Source of the DNA: Acidobacteriaceae bacterium
GTDB lineage: Bacteria; Acidobacteriota; Terriglobia; Terriglobales; Acidobacteriaceae
Direction of reading: 5' to 3'
Assembly: GCA_003152795.1 (NCBI GenBank)
Contig: PMBA01000446.1
Coordinates: 2,766-16,393 of the forward strand
DNA: 13,628 nt
Within the stretch, counting starts at the first letter, position 1; every line of letters starts with the position of its first letter. This document shows, piece after piece, positions 2,109-13,628 of the stretch. A program made the position numbers and the translations under genes. The notes beneath the pieces are model-generated. The model saw only the letters and a list, made by a program, of their open reading frames with translations. It did not search any database and was not told where the DNA came from.

Positions 2109-2653
2109 TTGATTTCTCTTCCTTTCGGCCTCCCGAAATGCTTGCGCGCGTACAGAGCCAGTTTGGCCACGGTGAGAAGAAATTGGGCATTAGACTGGCG
2201 CATCTCCGCCGAACCGAAAATGCCGCGCCCCGAATCCCACGCTTGATCCAGTTCGCGCCGCAGTTGCTCGAACGAATAGCCCGGCGGGAGTTGCGCGATC
2301 ACATCGGCAAGCAGTTCGCGCGCACGTTGAATAGTCTGCGCGCCTTGTTGATGTGTAATTACGCCTGCGAGATACTTATTGAGCAGGTCGCACTGGTACG
2401 CACGACAAGTGTTAGGATGCTTGGGATAAACCGAACAATGTTGCTCCCGATAAAGCGGACAGGGCTGACGAAAGCCGAGCGTGTCGCCGATTGTCTCGAT
2501 GGTCAAGCCAAGCGCGCGGACCTGTTCGATTCCGTCCGGCTTGACGACGGCGTGCACGTGCAACACACCATTGCAGCACAAGCCACAGGCAAGGCAGAGT
2601 GAGGAGCCAGCAGACCCTAAAGGTTTTCCGCTCGGGTCTTCGCGCGCGATCAT
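2105..2653 (-). CDS. YkgJ-type CxxCxxCC cysteine-cluster protein
   Basis: 182 residues from the ATG at 2653. A cluster C20-x2-C23-x2-C26-C27 is followed by C65, C73, C83 and C88 (CPLYREQHC, then TCRAYQC), the pattern of PF03692 proteins thought to bind zinc or an Fe-S cluster. The biochemical role of this family is poorly known. A GTG six bases upstream is in frame, but the ATG gives an ATGA overlap with the stop of the radical SAM gene, which I prefer. The gene sits between the radical SAM enzyme and the nucleotidyltransferase with overlaps on both sides, so the three are likely made together. A role as metal or electron-transfer partner of the radical SAM enzyme, or as an oxidoreductase-like tailoring protein, is possible but unproven. 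Confidence 0.8.
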   Translation of the reverse strand: MIAREDPSGKPLGSAGSSLCLACGLCCNGVLHVHAVVKPDGIEQVRALGLTIETIGDTLGFRQPCPLYREQHCSVYPKHPNTCRAYQCDLLNKYLAGVITHQQGAQTIQRARELLADVIAQLPPGYSFEQLRRELDQAWDSGRGIFGSAEMRQSNAQFLLTVAKLALYARKHFGRPKGREIK

Positions 2654-4200
2654 GCGCACGCCTTTGCTCTGCCGAATGTTTTGCGGAACGCATTTCGAGC
2701 CGGCGACCAGTCTCCACGCAGCAACCGCCGCGCGCCTTGCCCAACCCGTCCGAGCAAGCTACACATGCGATAGACTCGCTCCGGCAACCAGACCCAGTTG
2801 AGACGGCGCAGGGGGGCGGACATCAAAAGTGCGATCAGCCAATACGGCGCGTACGGCGACTGGAACAAACGAAACAGGCCGTTGACATATGTGCGTTTCA
2901 ATTCATGATAAAACTTGCGGTAGACCTGGGTAAGATCGTTCGTTACGAGTCCCTCCCGCCTAGCGCGTTCGTGCAATTCCGTCCCTGGGTAGAAGACCAG
3001 GGAAAACAAAGCCAGGCGGTATGGTCGCCGAAGGCGCAACATCATCCGCAGCGTCTCGATCTGATCTTCCTCCGTCTCCCAGGGATTGTCCAGGATCAAA
3101 TGATACCTTGGTATGATGCGATCCGTGAACTTATGCAAGACCTCAAAGGTTTGAGTGATGTGCTTCTGCGTGCAGGCGCGATGATAGACCTGGTGCATCA
3201 CCCGCATGCTGCCGGTCTGGATACCCACTTGCGCATCGACCAGTCCCGCGTCTACCAACAGACGGATTTTTTCTTCATCAACGATCTCCGGATGAAAACC
3301 GCTTATTGAAAAAGGAATTCCATTGGCCTGTTTGTAGCTACTGCAGAACTCGCGGACCATTTTCACATCATCCACGAAGAGTTCATCGTTGATATGAATA
3401 CGTTGGATCTCCGGGAAACACGACCTTATCTGTTTCAACTCTCCAAGGAAATTGGACACGCCGCGGCGACGGACACGCCATTCCCGGCCATAGATTTTGC
3501 CGAGAAAATTGTTGGCACAATAAGCGCAGCGATAATGACAGCCTCGAGACAGGAAAATTGGGTAGGTGAGGAGTGATTGGGGAGGGAAATTTCTTCGGAT
3601 ATGGTAGAACAGCAAATCCTTGCTCATGGGCTGGAGGCGTCCCTGATGCAGAACGAACTCTGCGCTCAAATCGTAATCAGGGTAGGGATAGGAATCAAGA
3701 TCGGATGCCAACGGGCGTAAAGGCGTGCGCACAATTTCGCAGTTGCGCTTGTACCAGATGTTGCGGATTTCGGCGTAACCGTTGCCGTTGTTCATTTGCT
3801 GGACCAGCTCGCGCAGCGCCTCTTCCCCTTCGCCTACGCAAATCAGGTCGGCGTGTTCCAGACATTCCTCCGGACGCACGGTGGGGTGGACGCCGCCCCA
3901 GATGATGGGAGCATGGGTTGAACGGCGCAGATGTTGAGTGATCTGAACCGCGTTGTCAAAATAGTTGCTCATCAGAGAGAGGCCGACCAGGTCGCTGCCC
4001 TGCACCACTTTCGCAACCTGATCCAGCGCCGATTCGGAATAAGAAAAACGAAACCCGGCTCCACGCGAACTTACCCCTTTGATCTCATGGGGCAGCATAA
4101 CCGTCTGGCATTCAACTCCCATCGTCTTCAGCACGGCCGATAGCATACGGATCCCATTGACCGTGACATTTTCGTAGGGTGAAATAAGCGTGACTTTCAT
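2650..4200 (-). CDS. B12-binding-domain radical SAM protein
   Basis: 516 residues. The N-terminal part (about 1-140) is a cobalamin-binding-like domain with GLSLMSNYFDNAV (73-85) and WGGVHPTVRPEEC, then CVGEGEEAL, hallmarks of the BchE/methylthiotransferase-like class. The radical SAM domain follows with the [4Fe-4S] motif SRGCHYRCAYC (Cys221, Cys225, Cys228), then GFHPEIVDEEKIRLL and VGIQTGS. A basic, partly hydrophobic tail (about 440-516) ends the protein. The DxHxxG lower-ligand motif is not evident, which is common in this class. ATG is preceded by GGAGGGAGG. Expected chemistry is radical-based C-methylation or another C-C or C-X bond change, using SAM and perhaps cobalamin. In this cluster the peptide, a sugar or a lipid could be the substrate; the sequence does not decide. 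Confidence 0.88.
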   Translation of the reverse strand: MKVTLISPYENVTVNGIRMLSAVLKTMGVECQTVMLPHEIKGVSSRGAGFRFSYSESALDQVAKVVQGSDLVGLSLMSNYFDNAVQITQHLRRSTHAPIIWGGVHPTVRPEECLEHADLICVGEGEEALRELVQQMNNGNGYAEIRNIWYKRNCEIVRTPLRPLASDLDSYPYPDYDLSAEFVLHQGRLQPMSKDLLFYHIRRNFPPQSLLTYPIFLSRGCHYRCAYCANNFLGKIYGREWRVRRRGVSNFLGELKQIRSCFPEIQRIHINDELFVDDVKMVREFCSSYKQANGIPFSISGFHPEIVDEEKIRLLVDAGLVDAQVGIQTGSMRVMHQVYHRACTQKHITQTFEVLHKFTDRIIPRYHLILDNPWETEEDQIETLRMMLRLRRPYRLALFSLVFYPGTELHERARREGLVTNDLTQVYRKFYHELKRTYVNGLFRLFQSPYAPYWLIALLMSAPLRRLNWVWLPERVYRMCSLLGRVGQGARRLLRGDWSPARNAFRKTFGRAKACA

Positions 4201-4216
4201 AACCTCCCTCCTCGGA

Positions 4217-5131
4217 TCAGGTTATTTTCAGCCAATGCGACAAGTCGCGCCCGATGAGGTCTTGGAGTTTCAAAATGTCCTCACGATAATCCTCGGTCAG
4301 GCGCGCGCGGATTTCGGGGTCGAGGGGAGGTGGCGGCGCGAGATTGAATCGGTCATTCATGCGTCGAAAAGCCGACACGATGGCACGCCGTGCGGTCGCG
4401 GGCAGGAACGGCATCGTTTGTTCAATCCGCGCGGGATTGGTCGCTAGGCTATGCAGCCGCCGGCTTTTGGGCAACAACGTGACGTTGCTCCGCCGAATCT
4501 CGGGCGCGAAATCTTCATCCACCTCTAAAAAGCGGAATAAGTCGCGCAACATGGCTTGCGGTGTGTTGTTCCAGTCGTCGTAGAGATACACTTTGATCTG
4601 CTCGCGTGGGAAACGAGCGTACCAGTCCGTCAGGTGGGCATGGTAGTAGCCGTTCGTCTTGTGGAACCCACTATACCAACCTTCTTTCACGCGCTCATCT
4701 TCATGCGCTAAGGCCTCTTCAAACGTCTTACCTCGATAATCTAAGCCCCTCTCCAAATGAAATGTATAGTGCGAGAAAGCGCGTTCGGCCGGCTGGCGCA
4801 GGATCGCAATGATCCGGCTTTGCGGCAGACTTTGCTTGATGCGTTGCGCCGCCAACGGCGACCTCAAATAGTTGGTTGAGGCTTCACCAATCGCGCGCTG
4901 GTTCGTCACGCCGGCAAAAAGCAGAGCGTACTCGGCTGGCTTCCACACAGCAACCCGGCGAATATGGTCTCCGATGGGAGCGGGAAAAATCGGCGGCTCT
5001 CCTTTAAAAGCGAAAAAGAAGGGTTCTTTGACCGGGCTCATGTAGATTTCGGGATGCTGCGTGAGCGCATCGTAGAGCGCGGTCGTGCCGGCTTTGGGCG
5101 CGCCGATGATGAAAAAATTCGGCAAATTCAA
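4217..5131 (-). CDS. PAPS-dependent sulfotransferase
   Basis: 304 residues. The 5'-phosphosulfate loop is IIGAPKAGTTAL (8-19, with Lys13) and the 3'-phosphate-binding segment is AILRQPAERAFSHY (109-122); GEASTNYL (82-89) lies between them. This matches Sulfotransfer_1/3 domain proteins, which move sulfate from PAPS to a hydroxyl or amine. The start codon is TTG at 5131: it sits right behind GAGGTG with 5-nt spacing and 4 nt after the stop of the glycosyltransferase gene, and the fold's first strand begins at once (NLPNFFIIG), so no upstream start is needed. Sulfotransferases are reported as optional genes in kinase-bearing lasso clusters. The acceptor could be the peptide (Tyr or Ser) or an added sugar. 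Confidence 0.87.
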   Translation of the reverse strand: MNLPNFFIIGAPKAGTTALYDALTQHPEIYMSPVKEPFFFAFKGEPPIFPAPIGDHIRRVAVWKPAEYALLFAGVTNQRAIGEASTNYLRSPLAAQRIKQSLPQSRIIAILRQPAERAFSHYTFHLERGLDYRGKTFEEALAHEDERVKEGWYSGFHKTNGYYHAHLTDWYARFPREQIKVYLYDDWNNTPQAMLRDLFRFLEVDEDFAPEIRRSNVTLLPKSRRLHSLATNPARIEQTMPFLPATARRAIVSAFRRMNDRFNLAPPPPLDPEIRARLTEDYREDILKLQDLIGRDLSHWLKIT

Positions 5132-5135
5132 CGTT

Positions 5136-6191
5136 TCACCTCGTGACGTTCCGGATGTGTTTGAGCAGCCGGCTCAGGCGCGAACCGCGTTTGAGCCGCA
5201 AGGCGCAGAAGAACCGCAATTTCTTGCAGGCTTTCTCGTCCGTCGCGACGCCAAACTGCGGCGCGATCTCCCGGTAAAGGCGATAACATCCTAATCCCAG
5301 GTAAGCCGACTGCTGGCAAGCCGCGCGCCAGCGATCGGACATCCGCCGGCGCAGAAAAGCATCCGGCGTCTGCGCCAGACGGACGAGCCAGGTTCCGGCT
5401 CGCTCAAGATCCGCCAAGCTGGCGAACGATGCCTTTTCGGCAACATGGGCAACGGCGGCGTAATCCGCTTCCGCCATTGCGGGAAAAAGCGCCTGGAGAT
5501 AGCGGCTGCGGGACTTTCGCATATTCTCAATTGCAATAGAATACATCACAACATGGGTCTGCCGGGCATGACCGCGATACTTGTGCAAAACGTTCGGCAT
5601 ATTTCCCATCCGGTAGAGCGGGGCGAGTCGCGTCCACATCTCGTAATCGCCCATTGTCAACAGAGTCTCGTCGTATGAATGAGTTCGTGCAATATCTGCG
5701 CGTAACATGACGGTCGGGTGCAACAGAGCATTGCGAAACACGAGTTCGTGGCAAATGGCCACATGAGATTCGGGGAACCACCCGAGGCAGTCTTGGTCAC
5801 CAAATGATTTGGTGCAACTCCCGCAAATGTCCACCCCGGTTTCGCCCATCCATTCGACTTGACGGGCAAAGCGATCGGGCAGTGCGACGTCATCGGCATC
5901 CATATAGGCGATGAGTTCGCCATGCGCCGCCGCGATGCCTGTATTCCGAGAATGGTACGCACCGCCATGTTCCGCGAAAATGGGGCGAATGCGGGCATTG
6001 CGCGCAGCAAACTCGCGCACGATGCCCGGTGAGCCGTCCGTCGAGCCGTCGTCTATAATGATGAACTCGAAATGCGGATAGGTCTGGGCCAGAATCGAGT
6101 TGATCGCATCCGCGATGTAAGATTCGGCGTTATAGACCGGCATCACCACCGAGATGAGCGGGGGACCGGGGGAGGCCGCCAAGTCAGCCAC
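5136..6191 (-). CDS. Family 2 glycosyltransferase
   Basis: 351 residues. It has the classic GT2 start PLISVVMPVYNAESYI (11-26), IIIDDGSTDGS (44-54), GGAYHSRNTGIAAA and the metal-binding MDADD (97-101), then GDYEMWTRL (181-189), a usual acceptor-side motif. The start is GTG at 6191, overlapping the cyclase stop by 8 nt with TGAGG just upstream; no nearer ATG keeps the first beta strand. No clear membrane segment is seen, so it is probably cytosolic or peripheral. It would transfer a sugar from an NDP-sugar. In this array the acceptor may be the peptide or a phosphate or sugar already on it, but a housekeeping polysaccharide role cannot be excluded. Confidence 0.88.
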   Translation of the reverse strand: MADLAASPGPPLISVVMPVYNAESYIADAINSILAQTYPHFEFIIIDDGSTDGSPGIVREFAARNARIRPIFAEHGGAYHSRNTGIAAAHGELIAYMDADDVALPDRFARQVEWMGETGVDICGSCTKSFGDQDCLGWFPESHVAICHELVFRNALLHPTVMLRADIARTHSYDETLLTMGDYEMWTRLAPLYRMGNMPNVLHKYRGHARQTHVVMYSIAIENMRKSRSRYLQALFPAMAEADYAAVAHVAEKASFASLADLERAGTWLVRLAQTPDAFLRRRMSDRWRAACQQSAYLGLGCYRLYREIAPQFGVATDEKACKKLRFFCALRLKRGSRLSRLLKHIRNVTR

Positions 6192-8178
6192 CGAACCTCA
6201 ATAAAAACATCCCCACCCCCAGGCCGCGCGTCAGGATCGTACCGCACTCTCTTGTCGTTTTCACATTCACCTCTTTTTGCAGTGCGTGCAGCACGCCGTT
6301 CATCTTGGGCAAATCCAACACCTGTCGCGCCAACACGGATCCTTCCAGACGGACCATCATCGCCTGCACGTGCGACAGATCCGCGAGGATGCGCCGACCG
6401 AGATCGGCGGCTTGCATACCGCGACGCGTGTTGAGGCGGACTTCATCGGGCAGCAGTCCCCGCATCGCGCGGCGAATCAGCGCGCGGTTTTGCCCGTTCA
6501 GGCGGTATTGCTCATCGGGGATGGCCAGGCAGAATTCCATCAGGCGTTTGTCCATCGTCGGATCGCGCACCTCCAAACCGTAAGCGGGTCCCAGGGCCGC
6601 CCAAATCGAGCCGATTCCGCCAGCCGACTTGAGCAGTTGCAGACGCGCCTGGAGGGAGTCGGCGGGGAGCGTGAAAAACGGATCGTGCCCGCTGGCCTTC
6701 ATCCGCCGCGTGAGATCGAGCGAGCGCGCCCAATCAACGTTGATGGCGGAATACTCGGCCCACGGCGCGCGCTCGAGAGAAAGCCAACGCGATACATGAT
6801 CGCGCATGGGAAAAAGCACGGGGCGCAACAAATGCCGCTTGATCATCTTCCACGGCGACAGCCCCGAGCGTTTGTATTTGCTCCAAAACGTCCGCCATTG
6901 CCCCGACAAAATCGGTGGCCAAAAATTTTCCACGCCGCCTGTCCACGAAATCGTCCCGTTGCCCATCTGTCCGGTCAGGAGAACGCAAAGCCTTTGTTGC
7001 TGCGCGGTTTCCAGGAGCGCATGGATCCAGAACATATTTCCGGCCGCGTGCATGGGGCTGTCGCGCAATTCCAGGTCACGCGCGATGCCCGCCAACGGAC
7101 TGATGTTCTCGGCGCGGATGTCATGCACGTCCAGATTGCCGATGAACCGGCGATTGAGTTCAACCTGAGGCGATTCGTCGCCATAACGTCCGCGCGGCGT
7201 CGCGCTTTGGGTATCGAAAAGGGGGACCGAAGTAAAGACGGGCAAGCGTTGACCGCGGGCCCGCAGCTCCCGCGCCGCCAGCGCGCAGACCGAGCCGGAA
7301 TCCAAGCCGCTGCTGAGGGTGGCGCCGACAACCCCATCCCGACCCTCCCCCGTACACTGGGGTAGAGGAACACGCAAACGGCAGCGCACCGCCTCGGCGA
7401 AAATTTCCAGAAATGCTTCCAGATATTCGTCATCGGAACCCAGGCGAACGCGCGGCGTGTTTTCTATAAACCAATAACGCCGCGAATCCATTTGATCCGC
7501 GGTGACCGTCAACGTGTGCGCCGACGGCAGGCGACGAATCTCTTCATAGGCCGTCTGCCTGCCATTTTCACCGCCACCCCATACGGTCAGTAAACTCGCG
7601 ATGCCGAACAGGTTGGGGCGCTTGGGTACTTCAGGCAGCGCCAGCAACGCTTTGATGGAGGAAGCGAAAGCGAAAAAGCGTGGGTGGCGATAGTAATAAA
7701 TGCTGCTGATGCCGCAGTGGTCGCGGGCCAGAAACAACTTGCGCTGGCGCGGATCCCACACCGCGAACGCCCAATCGCCGATGAGATGATACACGCACTT
7801 TTCGCCCCAGCGGAGATAGGAGTGGAGGATCAAATCACCGTCGGGGATTTCCGATTCCCGGTTTAAGATTTCAGATTGCTGATTGTCGGCTCCCCAATCG
7901 GAAACCTGCAATCCTAAATCTGAAATGATTTCTTCCCGGTTATCAATCCGCGCGTGGGCGGCGAGGACAACGCCGCTGCCAGAATGCTGGCGCGGCAGGG
8001 CTTCGTATCGCGCTTCGGGCGTACTGCAGAGCAACAAATGCCCGAAGCCGATATTATCGTTCTGCCAAATGGACGCACCGTCGGGACCCCAATACGCCAT
8101 ACTGTTGCGCATGGCTTCGAGGCGCTCGCGGGCGACGGGCTGCCCGTCAAGGTTCACGATGCCAAAGATACCGCTCAT
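6184..8178 (-). CDS. Asparagine-synthetase-like lasso peptide macrolactam synthetase (C protein)
   Basis: 664 residues: a glutaminase-like N-terminal domain (about 1-190) and an AsnB synthetase domain with the ATP-pyrophosphatase loop TLSSGLDSGSV (about 287-297). Toward the C-terminus, LGPAYGLEVRDPTMDKRLME is the usual AsnB active-site region. Residue 2 is Ser, not the catalytic Cys of true glutamine amidotransferases, as is common in lasso cyclases that adenylate a side-chain Asp or Glu and let the peptide N-terminus attack. ATG at 8178 is chosen because MSGIFGI aligns with the family's N-terminus and TGAGGC lies upstream; the open frame continues to a TTG at 8217, which I reject. Two in-frame low-complexity insertions (about residues 93-114 and 271-282) come from repeat-like DNA. 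The product would act downstream of B1/B2. Confidence 0.88.
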   Translation of the reverse strand: MSGIFGIVNLDGQPVARERLEAMRNSMAYWGPDGASIWQNDNIGFGHLLLCSTPEARYEALPRQHSGSGVVLAAHARIDNREEIISDLGLQVSDWGADNQQSEILNRESEIPDGDLILHSYLRWGEKCVYHLIGDWAFAVWDPRQRKLFLARDHCGISSIYYYRHPRFFAFASSIKALLALPEVPKRPNLFGIASLLTVWGGGENGRQTAYEEIRRLPSAHTLTVTADQMDSRRYWFIENTPRVRLGSDDEYLEAFLEIFAEAVRCRLRVPLPQCTGEGRDGVVGATLSSGLDSGSVCALAARELRARGQRLPVFTSVPLFDTQSATPRGRYGDESPQVELNRRFIGNLDVHDIRAENISPLAGIARDLELRDSPMHAAGNMFWIHALLETAQQQRLCVLLTGQMGNGTISWTGGVENFWPPILSGQWRTFWSKYKRSGLSPWKMIKRHLLRPVLFPMRDHVSRWLSLERAPWAEYSAINVDWARSLDLTRRMKASGHDPFFTLPADSLQARLQLLKSAGGIGSIWAALGPAYGLEVRDPTMDKRLMEFCLAIPDEQYRLNGQNRALIRRAMRGLLPDEVRLNTRRGMQAADLGRRILADLSHVQAMMVRLEGSVLARQVLDLPKMNGVLHALQKEVNVKTTRECGTILTRGLGVGMFLLRFGG
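7334..7371. repeat. GC-rich low-complexity tract translated inside the cyclase
   Basis: The tract reads CCCCATCCCGACCCTCCCCC then a short spacer and CACTGGGGTAGAGG. CCCC and GGGG blocks can fold back on each other. It encodes PLPQCTGEGRDG just before the ATP-binding loop strand of the cyclase, a segment that looks unlike the surrounding protein. It resembles dispersed intergenic repeats, here kept in frame. Confidence 0.5.
7843..7930. repeat. AT-rich degenerate repeat tract translated inside the cyclase
   Basis: The tract is built of recurring GATTTC / AATCTGAAAT / AATCGG words. ATTTCAGATT (7868-7877) and AATCTGAAAT (7917-7926) form a perfect 10-bp inverted repeat. It encodes a hydrophilic segment (DWGADNQQSE and onward to IPDG) in the glutaminase-like domain, right after the IDNREE motif. 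The related cyclase fragment at 9177-9443 loses homology at the same point. Confidence 0.55.
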
Positions 8179-8270: not shown

Positions 8271-9098
8271 TCAATTTAAAGCTTTATATAAATCATATTT
8301 CTGAAAGACCGCTCCGATTTGTGCATCATTGATCATTTCATTGACTGACCATAACTTTTTTGTCTGTGTTCCCATAATCGTGGGAAATTCCTTGTGATAA
8401 GGATGGACTTTTTTGCACGAAATATGATTAAGTAACGCCATCGCCTTAAACCAAATATCGTCATTTTTTGGGCACAATACCTTGAAGGCGGCTTCATTAA
8501 ACACTTCCTGATTTAAAGATGCGGGAGGATACAGAATACCTCCGACACCTGTGGGAAAGAGCTTATAGCTCGGCCCTACTAGGCCTGGCGCAAGGTGGTT
8601 CCAATTCCTGTAGCTTTTCAGTTTGCCTGCTGCATTTATTTCCATAAAATGCGCTCGATGGCAGTGGATAGAATTCGGTTCATGCCTATATGATTCACAT
8701 AAATCTTTCAACCACGTTGGAGGGTAGAGACAATCATCATCAGCAGTAACGATAATAGCTTGGGGGTAATTTTTTAATGTATGGATTAACTTTGTATGCG
8801 GACCAACATCTCTGCACCATTCTATTTTTAAGCCTTTTTTCTCAAGCCTGTCTAGATATTTGGGGGCAGGTTGAGCTTTAAGCATTTCAGGCACCCATAA
8901 AAGCAAATCATCTGGCCTAAAGCTTTGACACATCAAGGACGCGACACATAAATAGAGGGTTGGCAAACGTTCCAAAGTTGTCGTTAGACTGACGATGATC
9001 GGAGGTTGTCTTTTATGGGCAGCAACACCGTTGAGCAGACCAAGAGCTGTCTTCAATTTATAAAATCTTTCCAGATTGGCCGACTCAATAATTCTCAT
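8271..9098 (-). CDS. Glycosyltransferase, GT-A/GT2-like, AT-rich
   Basis: 275 residues. The N-terminal PIIVSLTTTLERLPTLYLC (33-51), LMCQSFRPDDLLLWV (55-69), a DDD metal site in VTADDDCLYPPTWL (117-130), CHRAH (146-150), PTGVGGILYPP (182-192) and NDDIWF (212-217) fit a GT-A glycosyltransferase of the kind found in capsule and surface-glycan loci. The start is ATG at 9098 with only a weak ribosome binding site. Base use is clearly richer in A+T than every neighbour, with many AAA and TTA codons, so it is probably a recent acquisition. It lies between a decayed cyclase copy and the intact cyclase, which suggests it arrived with a duplication or rearrangement. It may glycosylate the peptide; the substrate is unknown. 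Confidence 0.8.
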   Translation of the reverse strand: MRIIESANLERFYKLKTALGLLNGVAAHKRQPPIIVSLTTTLERLPTLYLCVASLMCQSFRPDDLLLWVPEMLKAQPAPKYLDRLEKKGLKIEWCRDVGPHTKLIHTLKNYPQAIIVTADDDCLYPPTWLKDLCESYRHEPNSIHCHRAHFMEINAAGKLKSYRNWNHLAPGLVGPSYKLFPTGVGGILYPPASLNQEVFNEAAFKVLCPKNDDIWFKAMALLNHISCKKVHPYHKEFPTIMGTQTKKLWSVNEMINDAQIGAVFQKYDLYKALN

Positions 9099-9176: not shown

Positions 9177-9443
9177 TTAGCGATCCGCCATCCCTTCCTC
9201 ACGGTGGTCAATCCGCGCGTTGGCGGTGAAGACGCCTTCGCTCGCGGGGTGCTGGTGCGATAGATTTTCGTGCCGCGCTTCGAACGTGTTGCAGAGCAAC
9301 AGATGCCCGCCGCTCGCATTTTCGTTCCGCCGAATGGATGAGCCGTCGGGACCCCCACAAACCACACTCGCGTGCATGACTTCGCTGTGTTCGCGGGCGA
9401 CGGGTTGCCCGTCCAGATTGAGAATACCAAAAATGCCGCCCAA
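9177..9443 (-). pseudogene. Decayed N-terminal fragment of a second asparagine-synthetase-like cyclase
   Basis: The 88-codon frame aligns with residues 1 to about 88 of the intact cyclase downstream: GGIFGILNLDGQPVARE against SGIFGIVNLDGQPVARE, then GHLLLCNTFEARHE against GHLLLCSTPEARYE, and ARIDHREE against ARIDNREE. The start has become TTG and residue 2 is Gly. A stop comes right after, so the rest of the glutaminase-like domain and the whole synthetase domain are missing. The fragment is too short to be a working enzyme by family standards. It is best read as the remnant of a tandem duplication of the cyclase gene. Expression as a small protein is possible but unsupported by a good ribosome binding site. 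Confidence 0.75.
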
Positions 9444-9485
9444 GAGTTCTCTTTGTTATGCTCACCGCGCAAGGCGGAAGTTATT

Positions 9486-9518
9486 CGGGCGTGTTTCAAG
9501 TCAATTGAAACACACCCG
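9486..9518 (-). promoter_or_regulatory. Long hairpin downstream of the precursor gene
   Basis: Arms 9486-9499 and 9505-9518 give a 14-bp stem with a 5-nt loop, 40 nt after the precursor stop. The one non-Watson-Crick position is C-A if read on the plus strand but G-U in the minus-strand transcript, so the stem is unbroken only in the RNA of this operon. No T run follows it on the minus strand, so it is not a classic intrinsic terminator. A hairpin at the 3' end of a precursor gene can stabilise the precursor mRNA or limit read-through to the enzymes, giving more precursor than enzyme. Confidence 0.6.
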
Positions 9519-9557
9519 TTCCCTTTTCAATCTCTTTTGTACTTTCCGGAGAGGGGG

Positions 9558-9707
9558 TCAAGAACCGAAGTAAATGCCTTCCGGAGCTTTTCCCCCATGG
9601 AGGAGCGCCTCGTTCAACGCTACTTTTTCAAACGTCGGCGTGACCCACGAGCGCAGCTCGGCGGTCTGTTGCTCTTGAGGTTCTGTCTTGATTTTTGACT
9701 GTTCCAT
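9558..9707 (-). CDS. Lasso-type RiPP precursor peptide (A protein) candidate
   Basis: 49 residues, too short for usual gene callers. ATG at 9707 is preceded by AAGGAG with 7-nt spacing, the best ribosome binding site in the array. A polar N-terminus (MEQSKIKTEPQEQQ) is followed by W21-V-T-P24-T-F26-E27, matching the aromatic-x-x-Pro-x-hydrophobic leader motif that B1 (PqqD-like) domains bind. The C-terminal half is LNEALLHGGKAPEGIYFGS. Glu43 is the only acidic residue near a plausible core. A ring of 8, 7 or 9 residues would need a core starting at Leu36, His37 or Leu35; the usual Thr at -2 is absent. The last residue is Ser49, a fitting target for the neighbouring kinase. The gene lies directly after B2. 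Coding status is well supported; the exact core is not. Confidence 0.78.
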   Translation of the reverse strand: MEQSKIKTEPQEQQTAELRSWVTPTFEKVALNEALLHGGKAPEGIYFGS

Positions 9708-9726
9708 TTTGATTCTCCTTGCGTTA

Positions 9727-9832
9727 GAAAATTGAAATTGAACGTTGGATGTGGAAAGTTGAACGGGGCAGTCCAGACCAACGCGACCAAACGACTATCC
9801 AACTACACGACGATCCAACTCTCCGCGCGTTT
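9727..9832. repeat. Degenerate AT-rich repeat around the B2 stop and precursor leader
   Basis: Words such as AATTGAAATTGAACGTTGGA, then GTGGAAAGTTGAACG, and on the other side CTATCCAACTACACGACGATC and CCAACTCTCC recur as diverged copies of a TTGAA/CCAACT-type repeat. One end covers the B2 stop codon, so the last residues of B2 (GELDRRVVG) are encoded by the repeat. The other end lies just upstream of the precursor ribosome binding site. Confidence 0.45.
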
Positions 9833-10355
9833 CAGGATAGCGCGCCAGGATGCGGTAGTCCTGTCCGTTGGATTGCCCGACGATCACTTCATTCCCGTCC
9901 TGCAGCCAGGCGTGCCCGGTCAAGCCGCGGTCGGACACAGTCGCCGCGCCGTAGTGCAAAGTCGTGCCGATGCCGAGTCGGCGCAGAATGACTTGCGCAG
10001 CAATCGCGCGCGGGAAGCACACCGTTTCGCCCGGCAGGAAGAAGGCCGCTAAATTCGTCTGCCGTTGTACCCTCCTTCTGAACCGTTCGCGTTCGGTTTC
10101 GGTGATTTCGTCATGGCCCGCCGTAAAGGGTATTCGCGCAGATACCCCTATCCGTTGGCGCTCGGCAAACGTCTCGAGCGGCCGCCTGGGCGGGCGCTCA
10201 AAGAACCGCGTCAGCCGTCGAAACGGAATCACGCGCAGCGCCAGGCGCGCGACGAGCAGATAGAACATGGCTTCGAGCAAATACGGGCGCGCCCGCGCAG
10301 GAATACGGCGAAAGCGCGCCGCCCGTTCAGCCAGCCACTTGTACCAATCCAGCAT
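9795..10355 (-). CDS. Lasso peptide leader peptidase B2 (transglutaminase-like)
   Basis: 186 residues of the Transglut_core3 family. An N-terminal hydrophobic helix (YLLEAMFYLLVARLALRVI, 25-43) is followed by the catalytic core: Cys113 in TVCFPRAIAAQVILRRLGI, His148 in GLTGHAWLQDG, and Asp153, forming the cysteine-protease-like triad. It removes the leader peptide, together with B1, before ring closure. ATG at 10355 lies inside the 3' end of the B1 gene (29-nt overlap), so the two are translationally linked. The C-terminal tail RGELDRRVVG is encoded by repeat-like DNA that runs over the stop codon, an oddity unlikely to affect the core. Precursor follows 87 nt downstream. Confidence 0.9.
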   Translation of the reverse strand: MLDWYKWLAERAARFRRIPARARPYLLEAMFYLLVARLALRVIPFRRLTRFFERPPRRPLETFAERQRIGVSARIPFTAGHDEITETERERFRRRVQRQTNLAAFFLPGETVCFPRAIAAQVILRRLGIGTTLHYGAATVSDRGLTGHAWLQDGNEVIVGQSNGQDYRILARYPETRGELDRRVVG

Positions 10356-10620
10356 CGCACAATCCTTGTAAGAGCGCGGTCACTTCGCGGCGGCAAGTTT
10401 GCTCATCGACCGCGAACTGGCGGCCCAGCTGCGCACAGATCGCGTCGAGGGAAATGGGCGTCGCGATCAAGTCCCAGACGCGCCCCGCCGTTTCGTTGAG
10501 CGAGTAGCAAAAGCCGGCTTGCGCGTCAATTGCCAGCAGTTCGTCGTCCAGTTGGCTGAAGGAAATGTCCTTGCCGCGCTGGACAAGCGTGTTCGCCTCA
10601 ATCTTGGTCGTAGTTTTCAC
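10327..10620 (-). CDS. PqqD-like RiPP recognition element, lasso B1
   Basis: 97 residues from the GTG at 10620, which is preceded by GAGGAG at about 10-nt spacing; a TTG further upstream (10638) overlaps that ribosome binding site and is less likely. The protein has the PqqD fold signature: a beta-rich N-terminus (DISFSQLDDELLAIDAQAG), then SLNETAGRVWDLIATPISLD, a predicted winged helix-turn-helix, and a C-terminal LLQGLCDAGLVQV. It has no catalytic site; it holds the precursor leader in an edge-strand groove and delivers it to B2. It stands apart from B2, as in many Gram-positive and other non-proteobacterial lasso clusters. Confidence 0.9.
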   Translation of the reverse strand: MKTTTKIEANTLVQRGKDISFSQLDDELLAIDAQAGFCYSLNETAGRVWDLIATPISLDAICAQLGRQFAVDEQTCRREVTALLQGLCDAGLVQVAG

Positions 10621-10711
10621 CGCTTCTTGACTCCTCAAATCAAATCTGAAAGAGGAAAGGCCATTCTTTTTCCAGTACGCTGCTAATATTTTTCACAATT
10701 GATCCGCAATG

Positions 10712-11677
10712 TCAATAAACGTTTTGCCAATGCTTTAACAGCTTTTCCATCGCCGCATCGAACGCCGTCCAATCGCGCGGTCGCGCGAATTCCCAGATTG
10801 GAACGCGCCGCGCGATTTCCGCGCAGCGCTGCCAGTGCGCGGCGGCCTGTCCCATGGGCTCAAGCAAGTCGCCACGATAGGTCGCCGATTCCACGAATCG
10901 GCGCAAGGCCGTTGCGCCGGTCAAGCGCGTGATCCCCGGTTCTCCCCACTTCAGCAGATAGATCCCGGCCAGCGGCAGGGGGTGTTGAGCCTCATCTCCC
11001 GGCAATGGAAGGTGAAATTTGTCACTCCGGAAATAATCGCGTTCCAAACCGGCTGCGCTGCGCCCCAACTTGTTCAGCGCATCGCGCCAGAGTTTCAGCC
11101 GGGGCGAGGAGGGATAAACCCGCGGCGCGCCGTTCGGGAGGACCTCAAAACGGGACAGATCATCGCTCACAAGGCGATGACCTCGGCTAATCAGCCATGC
11201 GGCAAGCAAAGACTTGCCGGCGCCGGTCTCGCCGCAGAAGGCGAAGGCCCCGTTTCCAACCTGCACGACGCTGGAATGGAGCGACAGGATACCGCGTTGA
11301 TAGCACAACGCGCCCCAAGCCGAGCCAAGCAAAAAAAGGCGCATTTCGCGCGGACGGGCGCCGGGGGCGGGCGTGATATGGATGGCGCGGCCTTGCCGCA
11401 CCCAATATTCGCCGGCATGAGGGGCGTGAAAGCGGTATTCATCGCCGGTGATCAGCCGCGTTTCGAATTTTTCGCTTTCAACCCCCTCCCCTTCCAGGGG
11501 GGGAGGCCCCCCTTCCCCGCTCTCTTCATCCGGACGCGAGAGGCGCTCGCCGGATTCTACCGTGATGGTCACATCCGGCTGCGGGCAGGGCCGGTCGCTC
11601 TCGAACGCCGCCCATTCAGGGATCGGCAATTCGGAGGTGACATGCAAATCAGCGTTGGTATAGCAGCAGGGTTTCAT
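10712..11677 (-). CDS. HPr kinase/phosphorylase-like peptide kinase
   Basis: 321 residues. The kinase core has LSLHSSVV (131-138), the P-loop GETGAGKS (149-156) and LVSDD (169-173), all features of HprK C-terminal domains found as stand-alone kinases in paeninodin-type lasso clusters. Those kinases phosphorylate the C-terminal Ser of the precursor; the precursor here also ends in Ser. The HPr-specific N-terminal domain of true HprK is absent and replaced by about 120 unrelated residues. Residues 52-69 (ESGEGGPPPLEGEGVESE) come from a GC-rich repeat tract and look like an insertion. ATG at 11677 is the first gene of the array, with a TTGACA-type promoter just upstream. The stop is about 90 nt before B1. 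Confidence 0.83.
   Translation of the reverse strand: MKPCCYTNADLHVTSELPIPEWAAFESDRPCPQPDVTITVESGERLSRPDEESGEGGPPPLEGEGVESEKFETRLITGDEYRFHAPHAGEYWVRQGRAIHITPAPGARPREMRLFLLGSAWGALCYQRGILSLHSSVVQVGNGAFAFCGETGAGKSLLAAWLISRGHRLVSDDLSRFEVLPNGAPRVYPSSPRLKLWRDALNKLGRSAAGLERDYFRSDKFHLPLPGDEAQHPLPLAGIYLLKWGEPGITRLTGATALRRFVESATYRGDLLEPMGQAAAHWQRCAEIARRVPIWEFARPRDWTAFDAAMEKLLKHWQNVY
11481..11520. repeat. GC-rich inverted repeat translated inside the kinase
   Basis: The tract holds CCCTCCCC, then TTCCA, then a G-rich GGGGGGGAGG block and C-rich CCCCCCTTCCCC. CCTCCCC and GGGGAGG arms can form a hairpin. In the kinase frame it encodes a Gly/Pro/Glu-rich loop. Its style matches the C-rich tract at 7334 in the cyclase, suggesting dispersed copies of one repeat family. 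Confidence 0.5.
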
Positions 11678-11928
11678 AGCCGGCCTAGCTTCTATATATT
11701 TGCCGCCCTATTTTTGTCAAGGTGAACCGTCGACACGACCTTGTCATTTTGGCCATCACCAGCCGCAAAACCCGACATCTTTGTGCACCACCAACGCGCC
11801 GGAACGCGTTGGCTACCCTTCCCGTGCACTCCAGCGCCGTTTTCAAACAGTCTCCACGTCGACGTCGGATCCTTCACAAGGCTCGGCTAGAAATTTCACC
11901 ACACAGCTGGTAAACTAAGTGCGGGATC
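11678..11928. other. Divergent intergenic region with operator-like palindromes
   Basis: This 251-bp gap separates the minus-strand array from the plus-strand exporter. Apart from the promoter near its left end it contains a perfect 8-bp inverted repeat CCAACGCG / CGCGTTGG (11791-11798 and 11805-11812, 6-nt spacer) and a perfect 10-bp palindrome ACGTCGACGT (11856-11865). Either may be a regulator site. I see no convincing plus-strand promoter for the exporter. Confidence 0.45.
11693..11720 (-). promoter_or_regulatory. Sigma-70-type promoter for the minus-strand array
   Basis: On the minus strand TTGACA (11720-11715) is a perfect -35 box, followed after 16 nt by TATATA (11698-11693) as a -10 box. 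A start of transcription near 11,686 would leave only about 9 nt before the kinase ATG at 11677, so the leader would be very short. It is the clearest promoter in the window and is well placed to drive the whole array. Confidence 0.6.
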
Positions 11929-13628
11929 GTGTCAAAAATCTCTCTTCTACGCAACCGTATCCAAAGCGCGCTGCAATTGGGGCGCGCTCTTCGCCTGGTC
12001 TGGCAGACCGCGCCGACCTGGACGCTGGTCAATAGCCTGCTGGTATTCGTGCAGGGCGTGTTGCCGCTCGTCTCACTCTACTTGATGAAGCGCATCCTCG
12101 ACGCCGTCTCGGCCAGCCTGGCTGCGCCCCACCCGGCCAGCGCCTTCCAGCCGGTCGTTTTTTGGATCTTGCTGGCCGGCGGCGTGGCCGCCTTCACCGC
12201 CCTCATTCGTTCTATCAGTGAGTACGCCTCCGAAGCGCATGCGCTGCAGGTGACGCACGCGGTCGCCGACATTCTGCACGCCCAATCCATCGCCGTGGAC
12301 TTGGAATACTATGAAGACCCGGGTTACTACGACACGCTGCACCGGGCCCAGAAGGAAGCGCCGTTCCGTCCCACGCGCATCGTCAACGGGCTGATCCTGG
12401 CTGCCCAGAACGGCATTTCCCTGCTGGGGATTGTCGGCCTAGTCATTTCGTTCAACGGGCTTCTGGCCCTGGTCCTGTTGCTGGCTGCCTTGCCGGGCGC
12501 GCTGACCCGCCTGAAATACTCGCGCCGCTTGTATGGTTTCGACCAGGACCAGACCGAAAAGGAACGTCGGACCTGGTATGATCACAATGTCCTCACCGAC
12601 GTGCACTACGCCAAAGAAGTGCGGCTGTTCAGCCTGGGGGCCCTGTTCCAAAAGCGCTATCACGATGGGCAGGAGCAGATCCGCACGGGCAAATTGGAGC
12701 TCTCGCGTCGCCGCGTCCGCGCCGATTGGCTCGCCCAGGCGCTTGCCGTCGCCGCCCTGTTCAGCTCGCTGGCTTGGCTCGCCCGGCAGACGGTTCTCGG
12801 CGCGGTCACAATTGGCGGCCTGATGATCTATTACGTGGCCTTTCAAAACGGCTTGAATTTCATGCAGTCCATCCTTCGCGCCCTGGCCGGGCTCTATGAG
12901 GATAGCCTGTTCCTGACGAATCTTTTCCGGTTTCTTGACCTGAAGCCCAAAATCGTCGCGCCGCCCCATCCGCACGCCGTGCCCCAACCTATGCCGCGCG
13001 GCATCGCTTTCCACGGCCTCGGATTTACCTATCCCAGCCGTAAAGATGAAACGCTGCACGACATTGACCTCACGCTGGCACCGGGCGAGGTGATCGCCTT
13101 GGTCGGCGAAAACGGCTCGGGCAAGACCACCCTGGTCAAACTGCTCTGCCGTTTGTACGATCCGACGCGCGGCGGCATCCGCGTGGACGGCGTTGATCTC
13201 CGCGAACTCGACCCTCTCCAGTGGAGGCGGGAGATCGGCGTGACCTTTCAGGATTACGCCCACTATGCTCTCACGGCGTGGGAAAACATCTGGCTCGGCG
13301 ACGTGGAAGCGCAGCCCGACCCGGAGCGCATCGCCCAGGCCGGCCGCCGCTCCGGCGCGGACGCGTTCATTGGCCGCCTGCCGCAGGCCTACGAGACGAT
13401 GCTTGGCCACTGGTTTCAAAAAGGACAGGAGCTCAGCGGGGGGGAATGGCAAAAGATCGCTCTGGCCCGCGCTTTCTGGCGCGAGGCGCATATTCTCATC
13501 CTGGATGAACCGACCAGTTCGCTCGACCCGCTCGCCGAAGCGGAACTTTTCCATGAATTTCGGGCTCTTCTTGATGGTCGCAGCGCCATCCTGATTAGTC
13601 ATCGCTTTTCAACGGTGCAGATGGCGGA
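11929..13628 (+). CDS. ABC transporter, fused permease/ATPase, lasso exporter D candidate (3' truncated)
   Basis: 566 codons are in view and the frame is open at the window end. GTG at 11929 is chosen because an in-frame stop lies at 11911 and the first transmembrane region begins soon after (TAPTWTLVNSLLVFVQGVLP). The N-terminal half carries several hydrophobic membrane segments of an ABC transmembrane domain; the C-terminal ATPase has Walker A GENGSGKT (393-400), Q loop FQDY, signature LSGGE (502-506), Walker B ILILDEPTSSLD (Asp526, Glu527) and the switch His558. No C39 peptidase domain precedes it, which fits a cluster where B2 removes the leader. It probably exports the mature peptide. 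It is divergent from the array and shares the intergenic region, so co-regulation is likely. The ribosome binding site is weak. Confidence 0.87.
   Translation, partial: MSKISLLRNRIQSALQLGRALRLVWQTAPTWTLVNSLLVFVQGVLPLVSLYLMKRILDAVSASLAAPHPASAFQPVVFWILLAGGVAAFTALIRSISEYASEAHALQVTHAVADILHAQSIAVDLEYYEDPGYYDTLHRAQKEAPFRPTRIVNGLILAAQNGISLLGIVGLVISFNGLLALVLLLAALPGALTRLKYSRRLYGFDQDQTEKERRTWYDHNVLTDVHYAKEVRLFSLGALFQKRYHDGQEQIRTGKLELSRRRVRADWLAQALAVAALFSSLAWLARQTVLGAVTIGGLMIYYVAFQNGLNFMQSILRALAGLYEDSLFLTNLFRFLDLKPKIVAPPHPHAVPQPMPRGIAFHGLGFTYPSRKDETLHDIDLTLAPGEVIALVGENGSGKTTLVKLLCRLYDPTRGGIRVDGVDLRELDPLQWRREIGVTFQDYAHYALTAWENIWLGDVEAQPDPERIAQAGRRSGADAFIGRLPQAYETMLGHWFQKGQELSGGEWQKIALARAFWREAHILILDEPTSSLDPLAEAELFHEFRALLDGRSAILISHRFSTVQMA

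Follow-up and report, generated by a model that had tools for sequence, protein, structure and literature searches.

A predicted 14-residue lasso peptide with alanine at the leader -2 position and cysteine in the putative B1 pocket

We analysed a stretch of 13,628 nucleotides (hereafter the window) from an assembly filed as an Acidobacteriaceae bacterium, and we consider it very likely that a 49-residue open reading frame on its minus strand (9558-9707), encoding MEQSKIKTEPQEQQTAELRSWVTPTFEKVALNEALLHGGKAPEGIYFGS, is the precursor gene (A) of a short, 14-residue class II lasso peptide, with the leader cut by an Ala(-2)/Cys44 pocket and a ring between Leu1 and Glu8. The assignment draws on the reading frame, homologue searches and a family alignment. 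The sequence-only reading of this DNA had described the core as non-canonical, but if the core starts at Leu36 its ring has the normal 8 residues, and the departure is instead in the leader, with its Ala(-2), and in the accompanying change in B1. The core therefore seems ordinary, and the variant part of the system seems to be the Ala(-2)/Cys cleavage pocket.

The frame has an AAGGAG ribosome-binding site (9715-9720) 7 nt 5' of its ATG and the leader motif W21xxP24xF26E27, both of which had already been recognized from the sequence alone together with the neighbouring B1 and B2 genes. Directly upstream and on the same strand are the genes for the B2 leader peptidase (9795-10355), for B1, a PqqD-like RRE protein (10327-10638), and for an HPr-kinase-like peptide kinase (10712-11677). 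On the downstream side, also on the minus strand, are a degraded start of the C gene (9177-9443), a glycosyltransferase-2-like gene of lower G+C whose domain match is below the Pfam cut-off (8271-9098), the main C gene, for the putative lasso macrolactam synthetase (6184-8178), and a family 2 glycosyltransferase gene (5136-6191). Beyond this second glycosyltransferase, domain matches and scans point to genes for a sulfotransferase-like protein (4217-5131), a B12-binding radical SAM protein (2650-4200), a CxxCxxCC zinc/iron-chelating domain protein (2105-2659), which is a putative member of the cluster, and a PF14907 nucleotidyltransferase-like protein (882-2108). The ABC exporter gene (D), also recognized by domain matches, is oriented opposite to the rest of the cluster and runs off the window (11929-13626, plus strand). 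We found no better precursor in the window or in the rest of the bin: a regular-expression scan of the window for a loose form of the leader motif gave five other frames, none belonging to the precursor family described below, and the family profile detected no second precursor in the rest of the bin, where the next match (E 0.6) contains stops.

A single-sequence search of 5.8 billion proteins found five relatives besides the protein itself (E 2e-9 to 5e-6), and a profile built from these six sequences matched 70 proteins including the window's own (threshold E <= 10; all 70 matches were used, the weakest having E 1.8e-3). The Trp and Pro of the motif are present in 70/70, as is F or L at the sixth motif place, and the window precursor and its family conform to the lasso leader motif [Y/W]xxPx[L/V/I/A/F/Y]. 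Every member also has a C-terminal Ser and, in line with Ala34, an Ala (residue 14 in a count from the Trp; Thr occurs there in 0/70), and 68 of the 70 have Leu as the 15th residue. Because homologues share W, P, this Ala and the C-terminal Ser in 70/70, the frame is more than a chance open reading frame. Conservation ends sharply, with an entropy of 0.22 bits at Leu35 and 3.19 bits at Leu36, and the core is hypervariable. Cores in the family are 13 to 19 residues long; the window's, at 14, is short without being a record, huascopeptin having 13 (PMC12427821). Wherever the source gives a product name for a member, it is "hypothetical protein", and NCBIfam has no model for the family (two unrelated models match 3/70 members, at E 0.015 or weaker). 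Against PDB sequences the profile matched unrelated chains only (best E 0.015).

Thr(-2) and a Y(-17) spacing are common guides to the border between leader and core, and because neither holds in this family, its members are easy to misread. The earlier count of 17 residues from the aromatic residue is a case in point: the arithmetic is right, in that a core starting at Gly38 would be closed by Glu43 into a ring of only 6, but paeninodin-type leaders count 15. A crystal structure of PbaB1 together with the leader of the paeninodin-type precursor PbaA places W, P, L and E at -15, -12, -10 and -9 (PMC13381572). PbaB1 (9x90_B, E 7.8e-10) is the closest solved relative of the window's B1, and the W, P, F and E of the window leader fall at these same positions if the cut follows Leu35. 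In addition, a contig from a Chloroflexi MAG (L020) that holds a family member also has three more precursors with Thr and one with Ser at the Ala34 position, all four with Asp at core 8 or 9, and L045 has five precursors with Thr at this position, with Asp at 9 in all of them and also at 8 in one. Given that the Thr or Ser of these nine relatives aligns with Ala34, and not with Leu36 as a core at Gly38 would require, we infer that Ala34 holds the place of Thr(-2) and that the core starts at Leu36. The predicted cut is after Leu35, with a leader of residues 1-35 (9603-9707, minus strand) in the register W21(-15), P24(-12), F26(-10), E27(-9), A34(-2), L35(-1), and a core LHGGKAPEGIYFGS (9561-9602, minus strand) with a normal 8-residue ring Leu1-Glu8 and Ser14 at its C-terminus. 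This core, from Leu36 and with a ring of 8, was one of the candidates in the sequence-only reading, and it is the one favoured by the W(-15) register and the Thr/Ser alignment. The suggestion that the product might be a different macrolactam is not supported in this register; the same Leu1-Glu8 ring was solved by NMR in leepeptin (PMC6856326). The absence of the usual Thr(-2), which is not strictly defining for lasso peptides, was correctly noted earlier, and Ala stands there in all 70 members.

With the cut after Leu35, Asp or Glu is found at core position 8 or 9 in 61/70 members, while shuffling within the cores gave a mean of 15.2 and a maximum of 28 in 20000 trials. Among non-redundant cores (<50% identical) the count is 39/46, against a shuffle mean of 9.1. 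The window's Glu8 is within the range of core 7-9 looked for in lasso peptides when the W(-15) register is used. The ring acid is mostly Asp in the family; seven members, the window precursor included, have Glu and no Asp at 8/9, and in the remaining six Glu8 is followed by Asp10, leaving the ring residue ambiguous. Nine of the 70 (P0006, P0017, P0023, P0024, P0034, P0047, P0059, P0061 and P0062) lack an acid at 8/9 and instead have Asp at 10 (six) or at 11 (three), and three of these also have Glu or Asp at 5. For these members, either the ring would be unusually large or the cut would be shifted.

Ring size alone does not decide between this cut and one a residue later, after Leu36, which would give the core HGGKAPEGIYFGS with a His1-Glu7 ring and with Leu35 at -2, resembling an Ile/Val(-2) leader, and which we regard as unlikely. 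The later start puts an acid at ring position 7-9 in 67/70 members, compared with 61/70 for the cut after Leu35, but the commonest ring would then be of 7 residues, which is rare. Past the conserved EAL, the second position is most often Gly (37/70), and Gly1 is common in lasso peptides, so the later cut would fit this habit, yet its -1 residue would be hypervariable, whereas Ala34 and Leu35 are fixed. Even though a Gly1-Asp7 ring exists in huascopeptin (PMC7549694, PMC12427821), the Thr or Ser of the nine L020 and L045 precursors aligns with Ala34, not Leu35, and Ile/Val(-2) pairs with an aliphatic B1 residue in 8/10 cases in the comparison below, while the window has Cys. We use the cut after Leu35 in what follows.

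The RRE is reported to help build the pocket for the -2 residue, with Tyr33 of FusE suspected to engage Thr(-2), and Ala placed at -2 stopped cutting in an Ile(-2) system (BsfB2) (PMC10368454). Ile(-2) is described there as validated, and putative Ile/Val/Ala(-2) precursors were reported by Kretsch et al. 2023, as cited in PMC10368454. We aligned 49 B1 proteins, namely the window's, BsfB1 and 47 from fetched loci. The column of FusE Tyr33 (Tyr37 in BsfB1) contains Tyr in 30, Phe in three, Leu/Ile/Val/Met in eleven and Cys in five. Those with Cys are the window's B1 (Cys44, codon 10507-10509, minus strand), the first B1 of L020, the B1s of L035 and L037, and the first B1 of L043, and all five loci hold a precursor with Ala at -2 in the W(-15) register. 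Over 27 pairs of B1 and precursor, the two residues pair consistently in 24: Thr/Ser with Tyr (11/11), Ile/Val with an aliphatic residue (8/10) and Ala with Cys (5/6). The exceptions are Ala with Tyr in L044, and Ile with Tyr in Bsf and in one system of L105. Permutations reached 24 matches in 0/200000 trials, which is uncorrected for relatedness and hence not a p-value. Identity to the window's B1 is 24% in L035, 27% in L037, 46% in L043 and 68% in L020, suggesting that the Cys B1s are not one recent family, though relatedness is uncorrected and precursors were not chosen blind.

Precursors for these pairs were picked by hand, with the B1 residues in view, from three sets of loci, in one of which 47 loci were inspected; the Bsf pair is from the paper. 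Loci without a convincing precursor were left out (L079, L081, L082, L083, L084, L086, L090, L093, L097, L098, L100, L102, L103, L106, L107, L108, L112, L113 and L114), as were those where B1 was not found (L036, L045, L080 and L109), the second B1 of L043 (Leu), which had no assigned precursor, and L094, which is ambiguous between Ile(-2) with W at -15 and Thr(-2) with W at -16. L035 and L037 were scored as Ala(-2) from the W(-15) register and ring size, and in L035 the B1 is ~10.7 kb from the precursor. A further 30 short B2 loci, with a B1 in most and no reliable precursors, were excluded from the count.

As a tentative generalization, which we think somewhat more apt to fail than to hold, there may be a leader-peptidase specificity code in which one B1 position and leader -2 co-vary (Tyr with Thr/Ser, aliphatic with Ile/Val, Cys with Ala). 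The window family would then be an orthogonal Ala/Cys class with short products that carry a phosphorylated C-terminal Ser and additional sulfation, glycosylation or radical-SAM modification, some perhaps having 10- or 11-residue rings. The pairing amounts to a two-residue swap that is directly testable, and if it is right it would help to separate leader systems in one host. With 70 short natural cores that follow one conserved leader, the family also lends itself to ring-size tests.

The maturation genes match lasso families to differing degrees. B2 scores 72.1 bits with NF033537, above the curated cut-off of 33, and has its Cys113 and His148 motifs. For C, which is asparagine synthase-like, starts MSGIFG and has an SGLDS motif, the best family is the lasso cyclase NF033535 (401 bits, E 9e-120), below the exception cut-off of 525, followed by asparagine synthase at 160 bits. 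The best NCBIfam model for B1 is lasso_PqqD_Bac, at 54.9 bits and below its cut-off of 80. Homologous clusters have a counterpart of the frame: the precursor is right behind B2 in the window, in L020 (B1, B2, precursor and glycosyltransferase in a row) and in L043 (C, kinase, B1, B2 and precursor, thus in K-B1-B2-A order). No C was found within the 40 kb examined of L020. The same contig has four Thr/Ser(-2) precursors, a second B1-B2 pair and a CysNC-like sulfate activation gene (2263-3808, 3888-5834 and 11291-12417), and in L045 five adjacent short precursors with Thr(-2), W(-15) and C-terminal Ser (9437-10672) have an HPrK-like kinase and C nearby.

A linear phosphorylated (LPP-like) or other non-lasso product of shared RRE/kinase machinery is very improbable. 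LPP clusters do have an RRE, an HPrK-like kinase, an NTP transferase and an exporter, as the window does, but their defining set is described as having no B2 or macrolactam synthetase (C) and using a signal-peptidase-like leader protease (PMC13381572), whereas the window has a B2 above the lasso cut-off and a C-like gene, and none of the 14 window proteins scanned matched a protease of that type. A linear product would also leave the conserved acid at 8/9 unexplained. We give a similarly slight chance to a decaying cluster, in which an intact precursor is no longer matured; it could appeal to the degraded C copy and the low-G+C glycosyltransferase-like gene that lie between precursor and C, but A, B1, B2, the kinase and the main C are all open frames with the checked motifs kept. 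A PqqA-like RiPP was ruled out by B2 and the C-like gene, although the leader motif occurs in PQQ precursors too (PMC13381572).

In sequence comparison the degraded 5' copy of C is 51% identical to C over 107 residues and contains stops. It shows a past rearrangement of the locus, and its position beside the low-G+C glycosyltransferase-like gene suggests an insertion with partial duplication of C.

The kinase has eight/eight of the catalytic residues listed for BsfK (PMC10368454), with the same spacing (H134-G149-G152-G154-K155-S156-D172-D173), and HPr kinase models match it below their cut-offs. PadeK-type kinases are reported to phosphorylate the C-terminal Ser of the linear precursor, and PsmN, a nucleotidyltransferase homologue, to attach a hexose to this Ser once it is phosphorylated; clusters of the PadeK/PsmN type can contain sulfotransferase genes as well (PMC9266682, PMC8498205). 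Since the invariant C-terminal Ser fits PadeK-type kinases, Ser14 is probably phosphorylated, and this is likely to be the first decoration. The kinase alone is no proof of this, because such kinases are also near precursors without a C-terminal Ser (L035, L036 and L037) and because BsfK acts on Ser3 (PMC10368454). The PF14907 protein is a possible PsmN-type phospho-glycosylation enzyme. For the family 2 glycosyltransferase, sequence comparison gave a 58% identical homologue that adjoins the precursor in L020. Among the best 120 of 874 matches to the B12 radical SAM protein, 55 are at least 44% identical to it, and a stretch matching its C-terminal 82 residues adjoins B1 in L020, so the protein may belong to the system as a candidate tailoring enzyme.

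The chemical steps, threading and tailoring roles that these features would imply can be put in order. B1 would bind the WxxPxF leader motif, and the kinase would act on the linear precursor, phosphorylating its C-terminal Ser. B2 would cut after Leu35, reading Ala(-2) in a pocket where B1 has Cys44 for Tyr, and C would close the 8-residue ring by linking the Glu43 (Glu8) side chain with the Leu36 (Leu1) amino group, which leaves a 6-residue threaded tail. The nucleotidyltransferase and sulfotransferase would probably decorate the phosphorylated or hydroxyl-bearing tail, and the ABC protein would export the product.

Among known systems, the paeninodin-type clusters of Bacillota share the WxxPxL leader with W at -15, split B1/B2, the HPrK-like kinase and the C-terminal Ser, and some of them also have nucleotidyltransferase and sulfotransferase genes (PMC13381572, PMC9266682, PMC8498205). 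The window differs in having Ala rather than Thr at -2 and Cys rather than Tyr in B1, in adding radical SAM and glycosyltransferase genes, and in that the named relatives of its family are not Bacillota. By these comparisons it would work like the paeninodin type, but with Thr(-2) absent we do not file it as a member. Bsf from Bradymonas sediminis and other Ile/Val(-2) systems share a non-Thr -2 residue, the kinase and the nucleotidyltransferase, but they have the Y(-17) spacing and Ile/Val(-2), and in Bsf the kinase acts on Ser3 and cutting by B2 is blocked by Ala(-2) (PMC10368454). Leepeptin has the same macrolactam as that predicted here, but 18 residues, Thr(-2) and a YxxP leader (PMC6856326).

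Organism names are given for three precursor homologues, which come from Anaerolineales, Anaerolineae and Chloroflexi, all Chloroflexota, and the named close relatives of the radical SAM protein, among the matches listed, are from Dehalococcoidia (59%) and Pontiellaceae (55%). The 70-row profile found only the window's own genome among 396 genomes sampled from its phylum, six including its own among 399 of its class, and only L020's genome among 393 of that genome's class; all three counts are lower bounds, as limited candidates were scored per genome. Of the five other class-level matches, two in long frames (789 and 791 aa) were dropped and three small-frame loci were fetched. With the six-row profile, 200 relatives gave 18 weak matches, spread over 16 other genomes and with E 0.0035 at best, which were not used. 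Neither a B2 search of genome_contigs nor a precursor search (A2) of viral_contigs gave a match.

The host is uncertain: the contig has been mis-binned, or else its cluster was acquired. At E <= 1e-10, 11/12 same-genus genomes lack a match to the flanking histidine kinase and the twelfth has one of 35% identity, and composition, compared with six other contigs of the bin (one N only), gives no decision on origin. Ambiguous bases in the source scaffold (L027, ~2750-2770, at window base 1) break the reading frame of a histidine kinase, and the window starts at this gap. The lasso system of a same-genus genome (L076) differs considerably, having Y(-17) and Ile(-2). In the class of the window's bin, 133/389 genomes have a lasso B2 match over the curated cut-off, and precursors with Y(-17) and Ile or Val(-2), accompanied by an aliphatic B1 residue, recur there (L076, L077, L078, L085, L088, L089, L091 and L111).
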